Source of the DNA: an uncultured Alphaproteobacteria bacterium | GTDB taxonomy: Bacteria; Pseudomonadota; Alphaproteobacteria; RF32; CAG-239 | DNA: 38,236 nt | Direction of reading: 5' to 3' | NCBI GenBank assembly: GCA_944391395.1 | Contig: CALXTI010000011.1 | Span: forward strand, 1 to 38,236 | In this document: positions 1,490 to 37,471 of the stretch, one piece after another | Numbering within the stretch: position 1 is the first letter of the stretch | Layout of the letters: every line of letters begins with the position of its first letter | Notes under the pieces: generated by a model | What the model saw: only the letters and a program-made list of their open reading frames with translations | Told to the model about the DNA's origin: nothing | Database searches by the model: none | Program-made: the position numbers and the translations under genes

Positions 1490-2092
1490 TTAATTGACTT
1501 TTCTTTGCAATTCTTCAATCCGCGGCAGCACGGAATTTTCTATAATAAAACCGATGGCGCGCTCGGCCATTTTATCAGTGTGCGCAGCGGTTTTTAACAA
1601 TTCATCATCGGGTTTGCCGGCGGCTTTTTTGGCCAGAGCCGCATAAACATCGGCAAGTTCGGAAAGAGAATCCAAAATCTCGGCAATGTAGGCCGGAATG
1701 TTCAAATCTTCTTTTCCGCCCCAAAAGCCTTCAAGATACCCCTGCTCCAGTTCTTCATGCCGGTTGCGGCATCGCAAACTCAAATCCGCTTTTTCTCCCT
1801 TGTCAAGCTTCGGCAGTGTGAGTTTGTTGGCACGGACGAGTTTAAACATTTCATCCCAAAGCCCCATAAAAAACTTGAAAAACAGCTCGGCCTCTTTTTT
1901 GGTTTCCAGCCGCGGAGCTTGGTTTTCTTCCCATAATGAGGAAATGACGTCGGTCGGGCGAAGGTTTAAATTCGGACTGCAGACGGCGCCGGCAAAACGC
2001 ATTTTCACCACATTCAAAGGCATCGGACACGCGTAGTGTTCCAAAAACTTTTTAAACTTATCGTCGCCGATATATTCATTTTCGCTTTGCAT
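1490..2092 (-). CDS. UPF0149/YecA-like hypothetical protein
   Basis: This is a soluble, mostly helical protein of 200 residues with no signal peptide or membrane segment. The pattern FAGAVCSPNLNLRPTDVISSLW near residue 33, followed about 80 residues later by EQGYLEGFWGG, resembles the two Gly/Phe-rich boxes of the UPF0149 (YgfB/YecA) family. The resemblance is by eye and moderate, and that family's function is poorly defined. There is no C-terminal SEC-C zinc motif as in YecA. It lies 22 nt upstream of the nitroreductase gene and is divergent from the lipoprotein-argS pair with only 25 nt between the starts, so the promoters must overlap. Confidence 0.6.
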   Translation of the reverse strand: MQSENEYIGDDKFKKFLEHYACPMPLNVVKMRFAGAVCSPNLNLRPTDVISSLWEENQAPRLETKKEAELFFKFFMGLWDEMFKLVRANKLTLPKLDKGEKADLSLRCRNRHEELEQGYLEGFWGGKEDLNIPAYIAEILDSLSELADVYAALAKKAAGKPDDELLKTAAHTDKMAERAIGFIIENSVLPRIEELQRKVN

Positions 2093-2117
2093 TTAAAATC
2101 TTCTTTGTATATTATGT

Positions 2118-2471
2118 TTGAACGTTGTTACTAATTTAATGGAGTTTTTGAAATTGTCCAGCCTAAAAATCACTCTTGCGGTTTTAATTTTGTGCGGTCT
2201 TTCCGCCTGCTCGCTTTTTGAGCCGTTCGTCGACCGACGACGCAACGCCGGCGCGCAGGATATCAGCCGCCTTTATGTCGGAAAATCCAAACCGGCCGCG
2301 CCGGCAATTTGTTATAATGGCTTGTGGACAGACAAACAAACTTTGCAGGATATGGCCGATGCCGAATGTCAAAAACACAAAACCGGCACACACGCCGAAT
2401 GGGTGCAAAAAACTTTATTTTCATGCAAACTGTTTTTACCTTCACACGCATATTACAAATGTGTTAAATAA
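2118..2471 (+). CDS. Small predicted lipoprotein
   Basis: The product is a small envelope lipoprotein. It has a hydrophobic segment LKITLAVLILCGLSAC with lipobox LSAC, followed by about 85 residues with four further cysteines (CYNG, AECQ, FSCK, YKCVK). The start is uncertain. TTG at 2118 gives the longest form; ATG at 2139 is possible; TTG at 2154 has GGAG 9 nt upstream and would give a compact 19-residue signal peptide. The gene ends 21 nt before argS and probably lies in the same transcript. I do not recognise the family. Four cysteines outside the lipobox suggest disulfides in the periplasm. Confidence 0.7.
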   Translation: MNVVTNLMEFLKLSSLKITLAVLILCGLSACSLFEPFVDRRRNAGAQDISRLYVGKSKPAAPAICYNGLWTDKQTLQDMADAECQKHKTGTHAEWVQKTLFSCKLFLPSHAYYKCVK

Positions 2472-27595: not shown

Positions 27596-29023
27596 CTAAA
27601 AAAACAAATCGCGGTTACCGCTTTCCACTTCGGACAACTTCTCCAACAGTTGCCGTTTTATCGGATTTGTTTGCGGAATATTTGCCAATTCTTCCTTAAT
27701 CCGCCTCAACCCCTTTTCTTTGGTCGCGGGCGACGCGTAATCCAACAAATATTCGGTTAAGGTCAATATCGCGTTCGGCGTGCAGAATTTTTTAACAAAC
27801 CCCGGAACGGCAAATTCCATGAAATGTTCCCCTGTCCGTCCCAAACGATAACAACCGGTGCAGAAAGACGGTAAAAATCCGTGTTCGCACAGTTGGCCGA
27901 TAACATCATCGAGGTTGCGGTTGTCGCTTAAAACAAACTGGCTTTTTTTGGCACTTTCCACTTCGTCTTCTTTGGCGTAAGCACCGACGCCGATATCCGA
28001 ACCGGCATCAATCTGGCTGACGCCGTACGATATGGCTTCGTTGCGCAGGGCAACCGGTTCGCGTGCGGTCAGAATCATACCGGTGTACGGCACGGCAAGC
28101 CTGATGACGGCAATCATCTTCATAAAATCTTCATCCGAGGCTTGATGCGGCGGTCGGTCGGCAAATTTGGTGCCGATGGCAGGTTCTATACGCGGAAAAG
28201 AAATCGTGTGTGGGCCAACGCCGAATTTTTCTTCCAAATGAATGGTGTGCTGCAACATGGCCAAAGCTTCAAATTTGTGATTGTAAAGACCAATCAACGC
28301 ACCCATGCCGACATCGTCAATGCCGGCCTCCATGGCGCGGTCAAAGGCAAACAAACGCCACAAATAATTACTCTTTAAGCCGCTCGGGTGCACCGAGGCG
28401 TATGTCTTTTGATGATACGTTTCCTGAAAAACCTGAAACGTGCCGATGCCGGCGGATTTGATTTTTTTGAAGCCTTCAACGTCAAACGGCGCGGCGTTGA
28501 TATTGACACGGCGGATTTCCCCCTTTCCTTCTTTGGTTTCATAAACTTTGCGCGTTGTTTCATAAATAAAATCGGCATCGTAGCGCGGATGTTCGCCATA
28601 GACCAAAATTAAACGTTTGTGGCCGCGGCTTTCCAGCGTGCGGACTTCTTTTTCAAGTTCTTTTAAACTCAACGTGCGGCGGACAAGTTCCAAATTTGAT
28701 GCTCTGAAACCGCAATAGGAACAGTTGTTGATGCAATCGTTGCCAATGTAAAGAGGGGCAAAAAGAACAATGCGGTTGCCGTAGATGCGGCGTTTTAATT
28801 CGTGCGCACCTTCCTTGATTTCGGCAACCAAATCCAAATCTTCGGCGTTCAAAAGCGCTGCCATTTCTTCAAGTTCCAAGCGGTTCTTGGCCAGCGATTT
28901 GGCGATAATTTCCCGGATTTTTACTTTATCGTTTTCTTTTTTTGCAATAAGATTTTCAATTTTTTCTTCATCAATGAATGATTTTAGGCCTTCAACGTCT
29001 ATTTTAGGCAGTCCTCTCGTCAT
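27596..29023 (-). CDS. hydG: [FeFe]-hydrogenase maturase HydG
   Basis: HydG is a radical-SAM tyrosine lyase that makes the CO and cyanide ligands (as an Fe(CO)2CN-cysteine synthon) of the hydrogenase H-cluster. The 475 residues have the radical-SAM CX3CX2C at Cys97, Cys101 and Cys104 (CINNCSYCGF). GALIGLYNHKFEALAMLQH lies in the TIM barrel. The C-terminal auxiliary-cluster motif CX2CX22C is at Cys388, Cys391 and Cys414 (CTGCYRLGRTGEHFM), which separates HydG from ThiH. Its start overlaps the hydF stop (ATGA), so the two are translationally coupled. HydE and the hydrogenase itself are not in the window. Confidence 0.96.
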   Translation of the reverse strand: MTRGLPKIDVEGLKSFIDEEKIENLIAKKENDKVKIREIIAKSLAKNRLELEEMAALLNAEDLDLVAEIKEGAHELKRRIYGNRIVLFAPLYIGNDCINNCSYCGFRASNLELVRRTLSLKELEKEVRTLESRGHKRLILVYGEHPRYDADFIYETTRKVYETKEGKGEIRRVNINAAPFDVEGFKKIKSAGIGTFQVFQETYHQKTYASVHPSGLKSNYLWRLFAFDRAMEAGIDDVGMGALIGLYNHKFEALAMLQHTIHLEEKFGVGPHTISFPRIEPAIGTKFADRPPHQASDEDFMKMIAVIRLAVPYTGMILTAREPVALRNEAISYGVSQIDAGSDIGVGAYAKEDEVESAKKSQFVLSDNRNLDDVIGQLCEHGFLPSFCTGCYRLGRTGEHFMEFAVPGFVKKFCTPNAILTLTEYLLDYASPATKEKGLRRIKEELANIPQTNPIKRQLLEKLSEVESGNRDLFF

Positions 29024-30228
29024 TTTCTTCCTTTCTTTTTATATTCAAGAGAAAAAGGTTCCAACACCCTTTCCAACACACCGTTTAACGCCGACAAACA
29101 GATGCCGTAATTGGTAATCGGCACGCCCGCGGTTTCACATTGATTGATTCTTGATAAAATTTCTTTGCGGTTTTGCATGCAGCCGCCGCATTGAATAACC
29201 AGATTATAATTTGCCAGGCCGCCCGGAAACTCGCACCCGGAAACATGGTCGACAATCAGTCGACGGCCGGTTTTTTCAGCCAAAAGTTTAGGAATTTTTA
29301 CCCGGCCGATATCATCTTCAAGAGCATGGTGCGTACATGATTCGGCAATCAAAACCCTGTCGCCGTCTTGTAAATTCCAGATTGTCTCCGCCCCTTCGAC
29401 CAGCTTCGGCAAATCGCCTTTTAAGCGCGCCATTAATATTGAAAACGTCGTGCACTTGATGTTTTTCGGCGTTTGTTCCACCATCCGGCGGACAACCTGC
29501 GAGTCGCAAACCACCAAATCCGGTGCTTTTTTCAAGTTTTGCAGCACATTTAAATAATCGTTTTCTTTGACAACCGTGATGATTTGATTGTTATCAAGAC
29601 AGTTGCGGATGGCTTGCACCTGCGGCAAAATAATCCGCCCTTTCGGCGCTTCATAATCAATCGGCACAATCATCACGATTGTTCCGTGCTCGGGCGCCAA
29701 GTCGGCCAAAAGCGGCGGCGGATTGAAAATTTCATCCGGACACAGACGAATGAGCGTGGCTTTGAGTTCGCTTAACACCCGATTGCGGGAATTTTTATCA
29801 AGCGAATTGACGATTATCGCCCCTTCCGGATTTTTGATTTTATACAAATCAGCTTTGTTAAAGACCACAACCAACGGAATTTTCTTTTGCTCAACCAAAG
29901 CTATCACATCCCGTTCGATTTTGCCGATTTTATCCCCTTCGCAAACCAAAACGGCGACATCGGCACGGTTTAAGACTTTTTGTGTTTGTTCAAGCCTTGA
30001 GGCCGACAATCTGGTCTTGTCGCCAAAACCGGCGGTATCCAGCCACAACACCGGACCTATCGGCAACAATTCCTGAGCTTTTTCCACGACATCGGTGGTG
30101 GTGCCGGGCACATCAGAGGTTATGGCGACGCTCTGCCCGGTTAGCAAATTCAAAAAACTTGATTTTCCGGCATTGACGCGTCCCAACAACGCAATCTGCA
30201 ACCGCAATCCTTTTGGTGTTTGCAACAT
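29020..30228 (-). CDS. hydF: [FeFe]-hydrogenase maturation GTPase HydF
   Basis: HydF is the scaffold on which the H-cluster two-iron subcluster is assembled before transfer to HydA. The 402 residues show a TrmE-like GTPase domain (GRVNAGKSS at 16-24, switch PGTTTD at 41-46, DTAG at 64-67, NKAD), a dimerisation domain and a cluster domain. Cluster ligands Cys298 and His300 (SCTHH), Cys347 and Cys350 (QCGGCM) are present. The family pattern is CxHx(46-53)HCxxC; here the His before Cys347 is Gln346 and the spacing is 45. It lies between a HydF paralog (25-nt gap) and hydG (4-nt overlap). Confidence 0.95.
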   Translation of the reverse strand: MLQTPKGLRLQIALLGRVNAGKSSFLNLLTGQSVAITSDVPGTTTDVVEKAQELLPIGPVLWLDTAGFGDKTRLSASRLEQTQKVLNRADVAVLVCEGDKIGKIERDVIALVEQKKIPLVVVFNKADLYKIKNPEGAIIVNSLDKNSRNRVLSELKATLIRLCPDEIFNPPPLLADLAPEHGTIVMIVPIDYEAPKGRIILPQVQAIRNCLDNNQIITVVKENDYLNVLQNLKKAPDLVVCDSQVVRRMVEQTPKNIKCTTFSILMARLKGDLPKLVEGAETIWNLQDGDRVLIAESCTHHALEDDIGRVKIPKLLAEKTGRRLIVDHVSGCEFPGGLANYNLVIQCGGCMQNRKEILSRINQCETAGVPITNYGICLSALNGVLERVLEPFSLEYKKKGRK

Positions 30229-30253: not shown

Positions 30254-31495
30254 CTAAAATTTTTTGTTCGGCAAGGTCTGAATAATCTCTTCACGACGTC
30301 TTTGATAACGTTCCAACGTGTTGGGAAAAGGCTCCAGAATTTTGGCCAGCAAACCATGTAATTCCGAGGCGCAGACGCTGTAATTGGTCAGTGGGACGCC
30401 GGCGGCCAGACAGCGGCTCTGTTCTTCCAAAAAGTCTTTACGGCTTTGCTGATGAAGCCCGCGGTGGATAACCAGACTGTAATTTTCCAATCCGAGCGGA
30501 CAACTGGAACCGTACATATGTTCAATCAGCAAGTCTTTTCCGGTTTTTTCCGACAGCCAGCGCGGAATTTTGACCGTACTGATGTCATCTTGCAGATTTT
30601 CGGGCAAAATCGGCTCGGCAATCAAAACTTTGTCGCCGTCTTGCAAGCGCCACACAGCCAAGGCACCGTCAGTCATTTGCTGCAAATCGCCCAGCATGCG
30701 GGCGGTTAAAACCGAAAAACTCGTGCATTTGATGCCGTTTGGGGTTTGCACCACCATTTGCGAAACCAGTGAAGAATCGCAAATCACCAAATCCGGCGGG
30801 GTTTTAAGATTTTGCAACACTTTGGCATATTCGCTTTCTTTGACGGTCATAATCATTTGATTGTGGTCCAAGCAGTCGCGAATCACCTGCGCCTGCGGCA
30901 AAGGAAGACGGCCTTTGGCGTAATCATAATCATTGGGAACCATCATAATAACCGTGCCGCCACGTGGTGCCAAATCGCCGATGAATACTGGCGGAACGAG
31001 CAAATCTTCCGGACAAACACGAATAAGCGCCGCTTTGAGTTCGGTCAAAACTTGAGTTCTTGACGACTTATCCAGAGAATTGGCGACAATCGCTCCTTCC
31101 GGATCGCCGATGGGGTGCGTGTCGGCTTTGTTGAACACCACAATCCGCGGTATTCGTTTTAATTCCAGATGCGTGATGATGTCGCGCTCTATCGTGCCGA
31201 TTTCATCGCCTTCACAGACCAACACCGCCACATCGGCCTTGTGTAAGACCGGCGCGATTGTTTTTAACTGATTGGACGTGTCATCATTTAAAAACCCCGG
31301 AACATCAAACCATAATACCGAACCGAACGGGTGCATTTCCTGTCTGATTTCCTCAACGCCGACAACATCCAAAGACGGCGTTGCCGTCGTTGACACATCA
31401 TGATTCAACAGCAAGTTCAAAAAGCTGCTTTTGCCGGAATTTTTGCGCCCCAGCAGCACGATTTTGATTTTTGGTTCAGCATTTGTCTGTTGCAT
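30254..31495 (-). CDS. HydF paralog without Fe-S cysteines
   Basis: The 413-residue protein aligns over its full length with the adjacent HydF, sharing for example VAVLVCEGD, KADLYK-like NKAD, LQDGDKVLIAE, LLIEHMYGSSCPLGLENYSLVIH and AGVPLTNY. The cluster ligands are gone: SCTHH becomes PILPE (296-298), and QCGGCM becomes HRGLHQ (344-349), which keeps the His that HydF lacks. In the GTPase domain the P-loop GRKNSGKSS and NKAD remain. The K-loop/switch PGTTTD is replaced by PSLDVVG, and DTAG is DVPG, so nucleotide may bind while hydrolysis is doubtful. It starts 1 nt after the tcdA-like stop. A scaffold partner or regulator of HydF is plausible. It is not a decaying gene, since the frame and most motifs are intact. 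Confidence 0.88.
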   Translation of the reverse strand: MQQTNAEPKIKIVLLGRKNSGKSSFLNLLLNHDVSTTATPSLDVVGVEEIRQEMHPFGSVLWFDVPGFLNDDTSNQLKTIAPVLHKADVAVLVCEGDEIGTIERDIITHLELKRIPRIVVFNKADTHPIGDPEGAIVANSLDKSSRTQVLTELKAALIRVCPEDLLVPPVFIGDLAPRGGTVIMMVPNDYDYAKGRLPLPQAQVIRDCLDHNQMIMTVKESEYAKVLQNLKTPPDLVICDSSLVSQMVVQTPNGIKCTSFSVLTARMLGDLQQMTDGALAVWRLQDGDKVLIAEPILPENLQDDISTVKIPRWLSEKTGKDLLIEHMYGSSCPLGLENYSLVIHRGLHQQSRKDFLEEQSRCLAAGVPLTNYSVCASELHGLLAKILEPFPNTLERYQRRREEIIQTLPNKKF

Positions 31496-32992: not shown

Positions 32993-33931
32993 TTATGAGC
33001 CTTTATTGTTCATGATTTTATGATATTTTCGCAAACGAAACCAGTTGTTGTGCCAAATTGAAAGGAGTTTTTCTTTTTTTGCCCAATAGAGTTCTTCAGC
33101 CAGGACGGCATACAAGTCGTCTTTTTTTGTTTCTTTTTCAATTAGTTGCAACTGCGTTTTGAAGATGTTCGGCACTAGACGTTTTTGCAAAAATGACAAT
33201 CCTTGTTTGTTTTGTTTGAAATATTCAAACAAATACTTCAACCCCGTCCAATAATCGTTTGCTTTTTTGACAGTAAACGCGGTTTTGGTAATTGAACCCG
33301 GATTGTAGGTGTAATAATATAATTGTTGATTGGTTATCACGGTTTTTGGATTTTGGCTCATCAAGCTTACTATCCACGGATAGTCTTCAAAACATATCCC
33401 CTCTATAAACAGATGATGTTGAACGAGTTTCTTTTTATACAAGCCGTTCCATACCATAAATTTTATGCGATAGCGCCCATGATTTAAAACGGACGACAAA
33501 GGCTCGGTTATTGTTCTAAAACGTATATCTTCAAAAAATATTTTGTTCGCAGTCGGCTGTCCGTTTTTATTTTTAACAAATCCGCAAAAAGCGACATCCG
33601 CTTCATTTTTCATAAGCAAATGCAGCATAACTTCCAGAAATTGAGGATGAACAAAATCATCCGAATCGATAAAAGCGATGTAATCGCCGCTTGCTTTTTG
33701 CAACCCGGCGTTACGAGCCGCGGAAACGCCTTTGTTTTTCTGCATGATGCTGATTATTCTTTTATCCTTGGCGGCAAAAGTTTTCAATATTTGCGGGCTG
33801 TTATCGGTCGAGCCGTCGTCGATACAGATAATTTCCAAGTTTTGATAAGTTTGTTTTGTAACGCTGTCCAAACAACGGGCAAGATATTTTTCCACATTGT
33901 AAACCGGTATGACAACACTGATTTTGGGCAT
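32993..33931 (-). CDS. Family 2 glycosyltransferase
   Basis: The 312-residue protein is a GT-A fold inverting glycosyltransferase that should transfer a sugar from a nucleotide donor to an envelope polysaccharide or lipid. It has the classic start PKISVVIPVYNVEKYLARCLDSV, IICIDDGSTDNSPQIL, KGVSAARNAGLQKASGDYIAFIDSDDF (DxD metal site) and a C-terminal half typical of the WcaA/EpsJ group, with FEDYPW. No membrane segment is evident. The ATG at 33931 has AAGGAG 6 nt upstream (33938-33943). The frame is open further upstream to 34120, but that part overlaps a terminator and structured RNA. No other polysaccharide genes are near. Confidence 0.92.
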   Translation of the reverse strand: MPKISVVIPVYNVEKYLARCLDSVTKQTYQNLEIICIDDGSTDNSPQILKTFAAKDKRIISIMQKNKGVSAARNAGLQKASGDYIAFIDSDDFVHPQFLEVMLHLLMKNEADVAFCGFVKNKNGQPTANKIFFEDIRFRTITEPLSSVLNHGRYRIKFMVWNGLYKKKLVQHHLFIEGICFEDYPWIVSLMSQNPKTVITNQQLYYYTYNPGSITKTAFTVKKANDYWTGLKYLFEYFKQNKQGLSFLQKRLVPNIFKTQLQLIEKETKKDDLYAVLAEELYWAKKEKLLSIWHNNWFRLRKYHKIMNNKGS

Positions 33932-33956
33932 AAAACTCTCCTTATACATCAATAGC

Positions 33957-33983
33957 AAAACGACCACCTTATGCGGGTGGTCG
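33957..33983 (-). terminator. Intrinsic terminator upstream of the glycosyltransferase
   Basis: An 8-bp GC-rich stem CGACCACC/GGTGGTCG (33961-33968 with 33976-33983) with a 7-nt loop is followed on the minus strand by TTTT. The T run is short, so termination could be partial. Confidence 0.6.
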
Positions 33984-34228
33984 GAGAGTTTACAAATCAT
34001 ACACGGTGAAATGACTCTTATGGTCTTTAGGCACATCGGAAAACCGACAATGCCCTGAACATGCACCATAAGCTCCCCGACCAAAATCGGGGATATATTT
34101 CTTGTGCATATGCGTAACATATCACAAAATCATGATGTTATATCCTAACACCACACCGTGTCTTAAGAGCTTGTAAAAACTCCGCACCCAACACAGGTGC
34201 TTTCAGAGATTGTTTAAAAGCAATCTCT
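33957..34228 (-). ncRNA. Candidate structured RNA (about 270 nt), possible attenuator leader of the glycosyltransferase
   Basis: On the minus strand the region between promoter and terminator folds into a consistent plan. A 5' hairpin (34221-34228 with 34205-34212) starts at the predicted first base, followed by hairpin GCACC/GGTGC (34184-34200). A long closing helix is formed by 34173-34183 with 33983-33993 and by CACCGTGT/ACACGGTG (34154-34161 with 34001-34008). Inside it are hairpins at 34091-34145, CCCCGA/TCGGGG (34075-34092) and CTTATGGT/ACCATAAG (34017-34072, with inner GGCA/TGCC and TCGG/CCGA). The last hairpin (33961-33983) is followed by TTTT. I recognise no known family. It could be an independent small RNA or a transcription-attenuation leader, since the glycosyltransferase ribosome-binding site follows within 20 nt. 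Confidence 0.6.
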
Positions 34229-34234
34229 TGTTTT

Positions 34235-34262
34235 ACTATATAAAGTTTCGGGAAAGTTGCAA
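34235..34262 (-). promoter_or_regulatory. Promoter of the structured RNA
   Basis: On the minus strand TTGCAA (34257-34262) and TATAGT (34235-34240) are spaced 16 nt. The predicted start, about 7 nt beyond, coincides with the first base of the 5' hairpin. The -35 has the same sequence as in the prepilin promoters. The remaining stretch to elbB (34263-34335) holds a further hairpin, GCGGAAA/TTTCCGC around 34289-34311, possibly the elbB terminator. Confidence 0.55.
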
Positions 34263-34335: not shown

Positions 34336-34989
34336 TTATAAAAGCTTTAACATCGCCTTGACCATTTCTTCCGCGCCGGCGGCAACTTCTTTGACGGAGG
34401 TTGCCAGCATATAAGCCGGCGTGGTAACCAAACGGTGTTTTTCATCCACGCAAACTTCGGTTGAGGCACGGTTTTCGTGTACGGCACCCATTTGTTCAAC
34501 CGCGGCGGCCGTGGCTTTGTCGGTACCGATGGTTAAATGCACGCCCTCACCGCCCAAAATTTTTGCCATGACAACCGGCGCAATGCACATGGCGCCGATG
34601 ACAAGACCTTGTTTGTAACTGTCCCATGCGGCGCGGCGAATTTCCGGCTCAACATGGCAATCAACCCCTTTGGCGGCAAAATCGCACCAGTTGGTAACGG
34701 CGCCAAAACCGCCCGGAAAGATGATTGCATCAAAATCAGCCGGATTGTATTCTTTGATATCCTTGGCATCACCGCGGCAAATGCGGGCGCTTTCTACCAA
34801 CACATTGCGCGTTTCCGGCATTTTTTCGCCGGTTAAGATGTTGATAACGGCGGCTTGCGGTATGTTCGGGGCAAAACATTGATACGTTCCGCCCAACCGG
34901 TCAATGGCCAACAAAGCGCAGGTTGCTTCATGGATTTCCGAACCGTCGGCGCGGCCGCAGCCGGAAAGTATAACCGCAAATTTTTTCAT
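34336..34989 (-). CDS. elbB: ElbB, isoprenoid biosynthesis glyoxalase family
   Basis: The 217-residue protein is of the DJ-1/PfpI superfamily, ElbB branch, known as a glyoxalase-type enzyme linked to isoprenoid synthesis in E. coli. Motifs are VILSGCGRADGSEIHEA at the N-terminus, CFAPNIPQAAVINILTGE, FDAIIFPGGFGAVTNWCDFA and the nucleophile region VIGAMCIAPVVMAKIL with Cys. VCVDEKHRLVTTPAYM is close to the C-terminus. Length is normal. AAGGA precedes the ATG. It is divergent from the M16 protease gene with overlapping promoters. Confidence 0.94.
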   Translation of the reverse strand: MKKFAVILSGCGRADGSEIHEATCALLAIDRLGGTYQCFAPNIPQAAVINILTGEKMPETRNVLVESARICRGDAKDIKEYNPADFDAIIFPGGFGAVTNWCDFAAKGVDCHVEPEIRRAAWDSYKQGLVIGAMCIAPVVMAKILGGEGVHLTIGTDKATAAAVEQMGAVHENRASTEVCVDEKHRLVTTPAYMLATSVKEVAAGAEEMVKAMLKLL

Positions 34990-36406: not shown

Positions 36407-37471
36407 ATGTCGCGGGCAGAAGACATCTTTCAAAGATTGGTTTATTTCGGAGAAGATGCCATTGATGAATTTATCGTCAACGGGCAAACCGAAGAATTGT
36501 TTTTGGATTTTAAACAGGCGGTTTCAACCGGGAAAAATTTTAACACCCTGCACCGTGATGACAGGAAAAATTTAGCCAAGGCTATTTCGGGTTTTGGCAA
36601 TTCTGAAGGCGGCGTCGTGGTTTGGGGCGTGGAATGCGCCCGCGACACCGAAGTGGGCGATGTGGCACAGGCCAAAGTCAAAGTGCAAAACGTGCATCGT
36701 TTTTTAAGTTGGCTTGAAGGAGCCATTTCCGGTTGCACGATTCCCAGCCACAACGGCGTGCGCAATCATATCATCAGTTGTGACGAAAACGGCGACGGTT
36801 TTATCGCCACATATATTCCGAAATCGGAAATCACTCCGTTGATGACCACCACCAACAGCACGATTTACATTCGTTCCGGGTCAAACAATGTTCCCGCCCC
36901 GTATGCGGTGATTGCCGGGATGTTCGGCAAACGCCCGCAGCCAAACATTGAACTGGATATTGAAGACAAGAGTCTGGAAATTTTGGAAAACGCCGACGAG
37001 GATATTTTGTATCCGAACACGATTGATAATCCGCCGGAAAAATATGTCAAAATCAATTTTTACATTCAGGCACGCAACGAAAGCAACGCCATCGGCCGCG
37101 AACTTTATTTGTCTTGCACGACCGAAGCCACGGGCGGCGAATATAACAAAATCAGATTTTTGAATTATAATCAAATGGACGCTTTGACCGGTATCAGCGG
37201 ACATCTGAACTTGATTACAAAGCCGGAACTCCGACTACCACCGCGCGGAATGCTGCGTTTTACACAAGTGCAAATTATATTATCGCCTTATGTTGAAGAA
37301 GATTTGTGCTTAAACGGCGTTATCGGCGCCGAAGGCGCGGCACCGAAGGATTTTAGAATCTATATTCCGAAAAACCAGTTACGCTCTTTTGTCGCCAAAG
37401 CTTTGCGCGAAGAGGACGAAAACGAAGCGCTTTTGAACGAATTTTTCGGAACTTATTTACAGAGCACTTAA
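36407..37471 (+). CDS. AlbA_2 (Schlafen-type) putative DNA-binding domain protein
   Basis: The 354-residue protein has an N-terminal AlbA_2 domain (about 20-160). [12 protein letters not shown] is the ExK-like strand, [26 protein letters not shown] is the family signature, and [14 protein letters not shown] is the closing segment. In several Schlafen/AlbA_2 proteins this fold binds or cuts nucleic acid. The C-terminal half is an unrecognised beta-rich region. It is 65 nt after the M16 gene and 4 nt before rnhA, so it probably shares a transcript with rnhA. A GGAG site precedes the ATG. The role could be regulatory, defence or RNA processing and cannot be decided from sequence. Confidence 0.83.

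Follow-up and report, generated by a model that had tools for sequence, protein, structure and literature searches.

Results

A structured RNA precedes a glycosyltransferase gene

The minus strand of the window, by which we mean the whole 38,236-nt stretch of DNA analysed, encodes a structured RNA from position 34230 to 33957. The 3' end of this RNA lies 25 nt ahead of the start codon of a glycosyltransferase gene (ATG at 33931-33929, with the Shine-Dalgarno (SD) sequence GGAGAG), and its upstream neighbour is a gene for a 217-residue protein (34336-34989) that has a hairpin terminator of its own (34315-34285). The elements of the locus are as follows.

34235-34262, minus strand: putative sigma-70 promoter TTGCAA-N16-TATAGT (-35 TTGCAA, 34262-34257; -10 TATAGT, 34240-34235), which fits the consensus but does not exceed chance expectation in this region
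34205-34228, minus strand: 5' hairpin P0 (AGAGAUUG..CAAUCUCU), from the fold, outside the covariance model
34184-34200, minus strand: hairpin P1 (GCACC..GGGUGC), helices 1-2 of the 23-sequence alignment, with double changes
34167-34182, minus strand: hairpin P2, whose loop is a1 (UUUACAA, 34177-34171), the equivalent of the c4-a1b1 hairpin by comparison with phage P1
34154-34161, minus strand: b1 (ACACGGUG), upstream strand of long-range helix P3 (helix 5 of the alignment), compensatory changes in each of the 8 pairs and 100% pairing (n = 23)
34133-34152, minus strand: hairpin P4, helix 6 of the 23-sequence alignment
34104-34125, minus strand: variable hairpin P5, from fold and alignment
34075-34092, minus strand: hairpin P6 (CCCCGA..UCGGGG), helix 7 of the alignment, which sequesters the 5' strand of the core outer stem
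33979-34082, minus strand: C4-like core of about 104 nt, exactly the part matched by RF02221 in relatives
34082-34073 and 33988-33979, minus strand: core outer stem, GGUCGGGGAG with CUCUCCGACC, 94-99% paired, with double changes
34072-34017 and 34016-33995, minus strand: core hairpin 1 (P7) and core hairpin 2 (P8)
34001-34008, minus strand: b' (CACCGUGU), core hairpin 2 loop, partner of b1
33989-33995, minus strand: a' (UUGUAAA), which follows core hairpin 2 and precedes the 3' strand of the outer stem, forming a pseudoknot with a1 (helix 4 of the alignment)
33957-33983, minus strand: GC-rich intrinsic terminator CGACCACC..GGUGGUCGUUUU, with GACC common to terminator and outer stem
33933-33941, minus strand: SD region GGAGAGUUU, able to form 9 bp with AAACUCUCC (a' and core 3' strand)
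32993-33931, minus strand: GT2-family glycosyltransferase of 312 residues (Pfam Glycos_transf_2, E = 2e-44)

An earlier note on this DNA had described a chain of hairpins, a long-range helix and a GC-rich terminator, with the first hairpin at the transcript start and the RNA end about 25 nt before the glycosyltransferase. Coordinates and features are correct: the first hairpin begins at 34228 in an RNA-coding stretch that begins at 34230, the RNA ends at 33957 ahead of the ATG at 33931, and the locus strand folds with -112.1 kcal/mol as compared to -71.7 kcal/mol for shuffled sequences (z = -8.3), none of 200 shuffles being as good. The promoter hexamers named in the note are present but do not exceed chance frequency. 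The region holds seven sigma-70-like sites where 5.3 are expected, and -10-like hexamers in the upstream regions of the RNA family stand at 60% versus 55% in shuffles, without enrichment; the hexamers were therefore rejected as evidence on their own.

No Rfam family reaches its gathering threshold anywhere in the window. At E-values up to 10 the locus has no convincing match, and none to RF01695 (C4) or RF02221 (sRNA-Xcc1); a search for tRNA and tmRNA at the locus found neither. Matches to CRISPR-DR65, isrD and the L20 leader at the locus score only 17-22 bits and were dismissed as chance. The Rfam search, a check proposed in the earlier note, is thus in line with its view that the RNA is not 6S, tmRNA, SRP or RNase P RNA, and some relatives of the window RNA do match RF02221 (see below).

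Among the ten neighbouring genes scanned, none is a phage or integron gene. Two HydF-like GTPases, each carrying HydF dimer and tetramer domains, are encoded side by side at 30254-31495 and 29020-30228 (minus strand) and adjoin a radical-SAM/BATS protein (27596-29023, minus strand); a tandem pair of an [FeFe]-hydrogenase maturase is unusual. A Schlafen AlbA_2-domain protein is found at 36407-37471 (plus strand).

Helices and long-range contacts are maintained by compensatory changes

In an alignment of 23 sequences, 93% of cells are paired and 34 of the 61 pairs show double changes, which none of 500 shuffles equalled; a sliding control, in which partners are shifted by 1-3 columns, lowers pairing to 34-43%. 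The long-range helix b1-b' has compensatory changes in all eight pairs and zero mismatch. A second long-range contact is a pseudoknot in which a1 in the P2 loop (34177-34171) pairs with a' (33995-33989), the strand directly before the terminator. Both contacts stand out in a permutation test that is independent of alignment columns and compares the longest perfect match within a copy with that in permuted copies. For 34 nonredundant copies of the family, the b1-b' run is 8.35 versus 4.39 permuted (z = 21) and the a1-a' run is 6.41 versus 4.14 (z = 13); the corresponding values in other Alphaproteobacteria (n = 29) are z = 18 and z = 12. P6 is 98% paired in other Alphaproteobacteria also, and its 3' strand has a possible alternative partner in the strand just before the terminator. 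A further contact may join the P4 loop (GGAUAU) to the AUAUCC of 34096-34091, with GGAAUA/UAUUCC as the counterpart in L024; these bases overlap P6.

By DNA search, the genome that contains the window has three further copies, and nearly all genomes of the bacterial family to which it belongs give partial matches. A covariance model built from 23 homologues of the window RNA (R1) finds full-length copies in 137 of the 152 genomes of this family and in 15 of its 16 genera. Genomes with copies hold from one to at least 14 of them, the high numbers being lower bounds because about 14 candidates were scored per genome; overall, copy number varies from 0 to 15. R1 copies are present in 37 of 385 sampled Alphaproteobacteria genomes, 5 of the 37 from the window's own family; elsewhere in the Alphaproteobacteria they are usually single and reside in larger genomes. 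The named records that contain the core sequence come almost entirely from uncultured Alphaproteobacteria; by title, many derive from metagenomes of animal gut and rumen. The breadth of this distribution, together with compensatory changes in nearly every helix, argues that selection maintains the structure. The RNA that the earlier note had postulated has thus survived comparison with relatives, in which its helices covary very strongly.

Some copies are arranged in tandem, with two RNAs about 90 nt apart in L006 (G028:C59) and two in L223, and in L164 a second core-like stretch lies directly behind the RNA copy. One full copy occurs in a record named Erysipelotrichaceae (L125, CACXGO010000005.1), a 3.6-kb contig that is probably mis-binned.

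The 3' part of the RNA is homologous to sRNA-Xcc1

The RF02221 model matches the relative L175 with 56 bits (cut-off 53), covering only the 3' part of the RNA, and reaches 31-37 bits at the corresponding position of L171, L172, L174, L178, and L200. The outer stem of RF02221 is exactly the window pairing GGUCGGGGAG / CUCUCCGACC, which we had first noted as a possible antiterminator. The window copy itself does not belong to RF02221 by this model. In the opposite direction, R1 finds L175 at E = 4e-10 and did not recover the sRNA-Xcc1 loci, whereas R2, a model built from diverse alphaproteobacterial copies with L223 and L212 left out of the building set, matches sRNA-Xcc1 loci over the full length of the model (L223, E = 9e-10; L212, E = 2e-9). 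By sequence comparison, the window RNA is homologous to sRNA-Xcc1 through these intermediates. The label 'undescribed' that the RNA had been given holds for the locus, which has no Rfam match, but not for the RNA as a whole, a homologue of sRNA-Xcc1 with the layout of C4. L175 contains two divergent RF02221 matches within 500 nt, at 1714-1797 (minus strand) and 2092-2176 (plus strand).

Of 398 genomes sampled from the phylum, 57 carry RF02221. In sRNA-Xcc1 loci, a hairpin with a1 in its loop, followed by b1, precedes the 87-nt match; downstream, repeats of a1 and b1 (a2, b2) flank the SD directly before the start codon. In L232, for example, the leader CCGAAAA-GGAG-CAACAAGACC-AUG faces the core strand GUCUUGUUGC..UUUUCGG. 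When 27 sRNA-Xcc1 loci were compared with permuted loci, b' had partners in the 5' domain (z = 8.3) and in the leader around the ribosome-binding site (RBS; z = 9.7), as did a' (z = 11.1 and z = 6.9, respectively). The genes behind these loci include those for Bro-N, KilA-N, P22_AR_N, and Phage_pRha proteins and for SymE; sRNA-Xcc1 occurs in integron cassettes, and symE adjoins it in Xanthomonas integrons (PMC12444791). RF02221 thus appears to cover only the 3' third of a larger C4-type RNA with a1, b1, a2, and b2. The 88-nt sRNA-Xcc1 mapped by RACE (PMC2996969) is consistent with a processed core. If the 87-nt sRNA-Xcc1 piece is just the 3' third of a longer molecule, predicting targets from it alone would overlook its own downstream gene.

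The downstream genes are biased toward the cell envelope

Pfam analysis of 94 distinct proteins encoded downstream of the window family identified outer-membrane beta-barrels (9) and GT2 glycosyltransferases (7), as well as opacity porins, surface antigens, staphylococcal-nuclease homologues, PLD nucleases, HTH regulators, and pilins. Many further downstream proteins are large, with a signal-peptide-like start, and look adhesin-like by eye; some of the start codons are automatic guesses. The set is envelope-biased yet mixed. A role confined to surface polysaccharide synthesis, as had been suggested in the earlier note, does not fit, since copies also precede genes for adhesin-like proteins, porins, lipoproteins, pilins, nucleases, and regulators. 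The downstream genes, with their mixed Pfam families, share no pathway, which speaks against a metabolite riboswitch with a single pathway.

The Shine-Dalgarno sequence is the probable remaining target in the window family

In sRNA-Xcc1 loci both a' and b' have targets at the RBS. In the window family a b2 target gives z of about 0 at the RBS and was not found in the other regions searched, and the a' signal alone at the RBS is not significant after collapsing redundancy (z = 1.4). The C4 arrangement of a2 and b2 around the RBS is accordingly largely lost in the window family, where the a2-like signal is weak. A pooled cis RBS pairing with z = -10 had pointed to conserved a2/b2 in this family; this signal was gone after collapsing redundancy, and the candidate was rejected.

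A different complementarity persists. At least 6 nt complementary to AACUCUCC are present in 12 of 47 window-family leaders versus 5 of 156 control leaders (p = 1.7e-5), the controls being taken from other SD-bearing genes of the same contigs. Roughly three in four window-family leaders lack a long SD match. The window leader can form 9 bp between GGAGAGUUU and AAACUCUCC. Of 119 other RNAs, a single one fits this leader equally well, and of 119 other leaders, two fit the window RNA to that degree. The predicted pairing of the SD with the core 3' strand is the only target pairing that remains in the window family.

A terminator fused to the core suggests a switch

A U-run follows the GACCACC hairpin in 99 of 105 window-family copies, which identifies the hairpin as an intrinsic terminator fused to the core 3' end; in family copies, the modelled RNA end lies a median of 23.5 nt from the ATG. 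The core strands have competing partners: the 5' strand can be taken up by either P6 or the core stem, and for the 3' strand the choice lies between the core stem, the terminator and the SD. In a thermodynamic model without pseudoknots, the terminator state is more stable than the core state by ~17 kcal/mol.

These alternatives suggest the following course of events. The RNA would be driven by its own promoter, and most rounds of transcription would stop at the terminator, yielding a free RNA of ~270 nt. In this precursor, a1 and b1 would hold a' and b' while P6 holds the core 5' strand, pairings that are backed by covariation. Pairing of the core 5' strand with CUCUCCGACC would instead create the outer stem, form the C4-like core and take GACC from the terminator; loss of GACC from the terminator stem would favour read-through into the glycosyltransferase gene. 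RNase P may also release the core by cleavage at GG 34082, in the manner of C4. Once freed, the core would expose a' and the 3' strand, which could pair with the downstream SD, to which they are complementary, and this pairing would block translation in cis or in trans.

We consider it probable that the window RNA is a C4-type antisense leader RNA, a homologue of sRNA-Xcc1 in a variant that has a terminator fused to the core and switches as proposed. Our best estimate, drawn from sequence, is that the target of a C4-type leader has been narrowed to the SD and that transcription termination has been added; we infer that the window RNA is regulatory.

The RNA could also be an orphan riboswitch-like attenuator that acts in cis only, its pseudoknotted part sensing a small molecule or a protein and thereby setting terminator versus antiterminator. 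The terminator in 99 of 105 copies, the median of 23.5 nt between RNA end and ATG, and the 10-bp pairing of the outer stem, an antiterminator that shares GACC with the terminator, would all be expected of such an element, and so would the conserved unpaired letters GUAUGUUCAG and UAAAG and the loss of the b2 target. However, sRNA-Xcc1 loci of the same architecture mostly lack such a terminator (by eye) and pair with the RBS, helices a and b are hypervariable, for which ligand sensing has no need, and no common pathway unites the downstream genes, so that we regard an attenuator as possible but doubtful.

Somewhat less likely still is a free trans-acting sRNA, for which the position ahead of the glycosyltransferase would be incidental and which would act, as terminated RNA or as core, on distant mRNAs via a'/b'. 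The strong terminator would suit it, the title of Chen 2011, as cited in PMC12444791, calls sRNA-Xcc1 trans-acting, and many C4-like sRNAs whose a' has diverged are described in A. baumannii (PMC5320573); yet copies consistently lie just ahead of a start codon on the same strand, and the SD complementarity of their leaders exceeds that of control genes. That the RNA is a mere passenger of mobile DNA (an integron cassette or prophage remnant) with no regulatory role in the window family is highly improbable, as its presence in 137 of 152 genomes and 15 of 16 genera, the compensatory changes in nearly every helix and the lack of phage or integron genes among the ten scanned neighbours outweigh the variable copy number (0 to 15 per genome) and the occurrence of sRNA-Xcc1 in integron cassettes (PMC12444791) and before phage-type genes.

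Discussion

The C4-type antisense leader that we favour leads to a more tentative thought. In this alphaproteobacterial family, a phage-type C4 immunity RNA might have become a self-contained switch through fusion of a terminator to the antisense core, and whether a surface gene is transcribed would depend on how P6, the core stem and the terminator exchange strands; many independently diverged copies would then provide one switch per surface gene, possibly serving antigenic or phage-receptor variation. The RNA points to a large chromosomal expansion of the C4 design before surface genes of little-studied gut Alphaproteobacteria.

One of the closest known relatives is sRNA-Xcc1, an RNA of Xanthomonas and other Proteobacteria. 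The cores are homologous, as seen with covariance models in both directions via intermediates, and the 5' domains with a1 and b1 are the same. In contrast, the Rfam entry comprises the 87-nt core only and the window copy is too divergent for RF02221; sRNA-Xcc1 loci have retained a2 and b2 at the RBS, and a terminator is missing from the majority of those inspected by eye, unlike in the window family.

The layout is that of C4 from phages P1 and P7 (RF01695; a1b1 region, RF03163 c4-a1b1). In the annotated P1 record, promoter P1c4 is followed by a1, b1, the 77-nt c4, a2, b2, and icd-ant, and the c4 core carries b' (CACUAAC) in the loop of its second hairpin and a' (CUGUCAA) between this hairpin and the outer stem. 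According to published work (PMC5320573), RNase P cleavage at a GG motif frees C4, which contacts the RBS of its target through the loops a' and b'. The window RNA resembles C4 in the succession of promoter, a1 in a hairpin loop, b1 and core, in a core whose outer stem encloses two hairpins, b' sitting in the loop of the second and a' before the 3' strand, and in the 3' end CCACC; in the wider family, at sRNA-Xcc1 loci, the RBS of the downstream gene is the target, as for C4. Across the window family, the outer stem, the two hairpins and the positions of b' and a' follow this layout, and upstream a1/b1 are complementary to a'/b' (z = 13 and 21). GG at 34082-34081 and ACC after the stem would be compatible with RNase P cleavage at the core 5' end. 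Unlike C4, the window RNA matches no Rfam model, RF01695 included, which does find P1 c4; it has the extra hairpins P4-P6 and a core of ~104 rather than 77 nt, its terminator is fused to the core, b2 is lost, and no phage antirepressor gene lies downstream.

Two observations concern P1 c4 itself. The isrK model RF01394 matches its a1b1 region (L233, 3231-3312) with 35 bits (cut-off 50), which suggests that isrK shares the C4-type design. A GCGGUAUUUUUGUGUCC-like element between b1 and core is common to P1 c4 (L233, 3301-3320) and the leaders of the sRNA-Xcc1 loci L220, L222, and L232, and possibly is terminator-like or a shared ancestral part.

The C4-like group 1 sRNAs of Acinetobacter baumannii (PMC5320573) are likewise multi-copy chromosomal C4-type RNAs with a variable a'; by description, they differ from the window RNA in matching the Rfam C4 motif and in being free sRNAs. 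Taken together, the comparisons join C4 and sRNA-Xcc1, for which the Rfam copy used lists no linking clan, in one antisense design. The C4 layout and the sRNA-Xcc1 core were already known; the form of this design with a terminator fused to the core is new.
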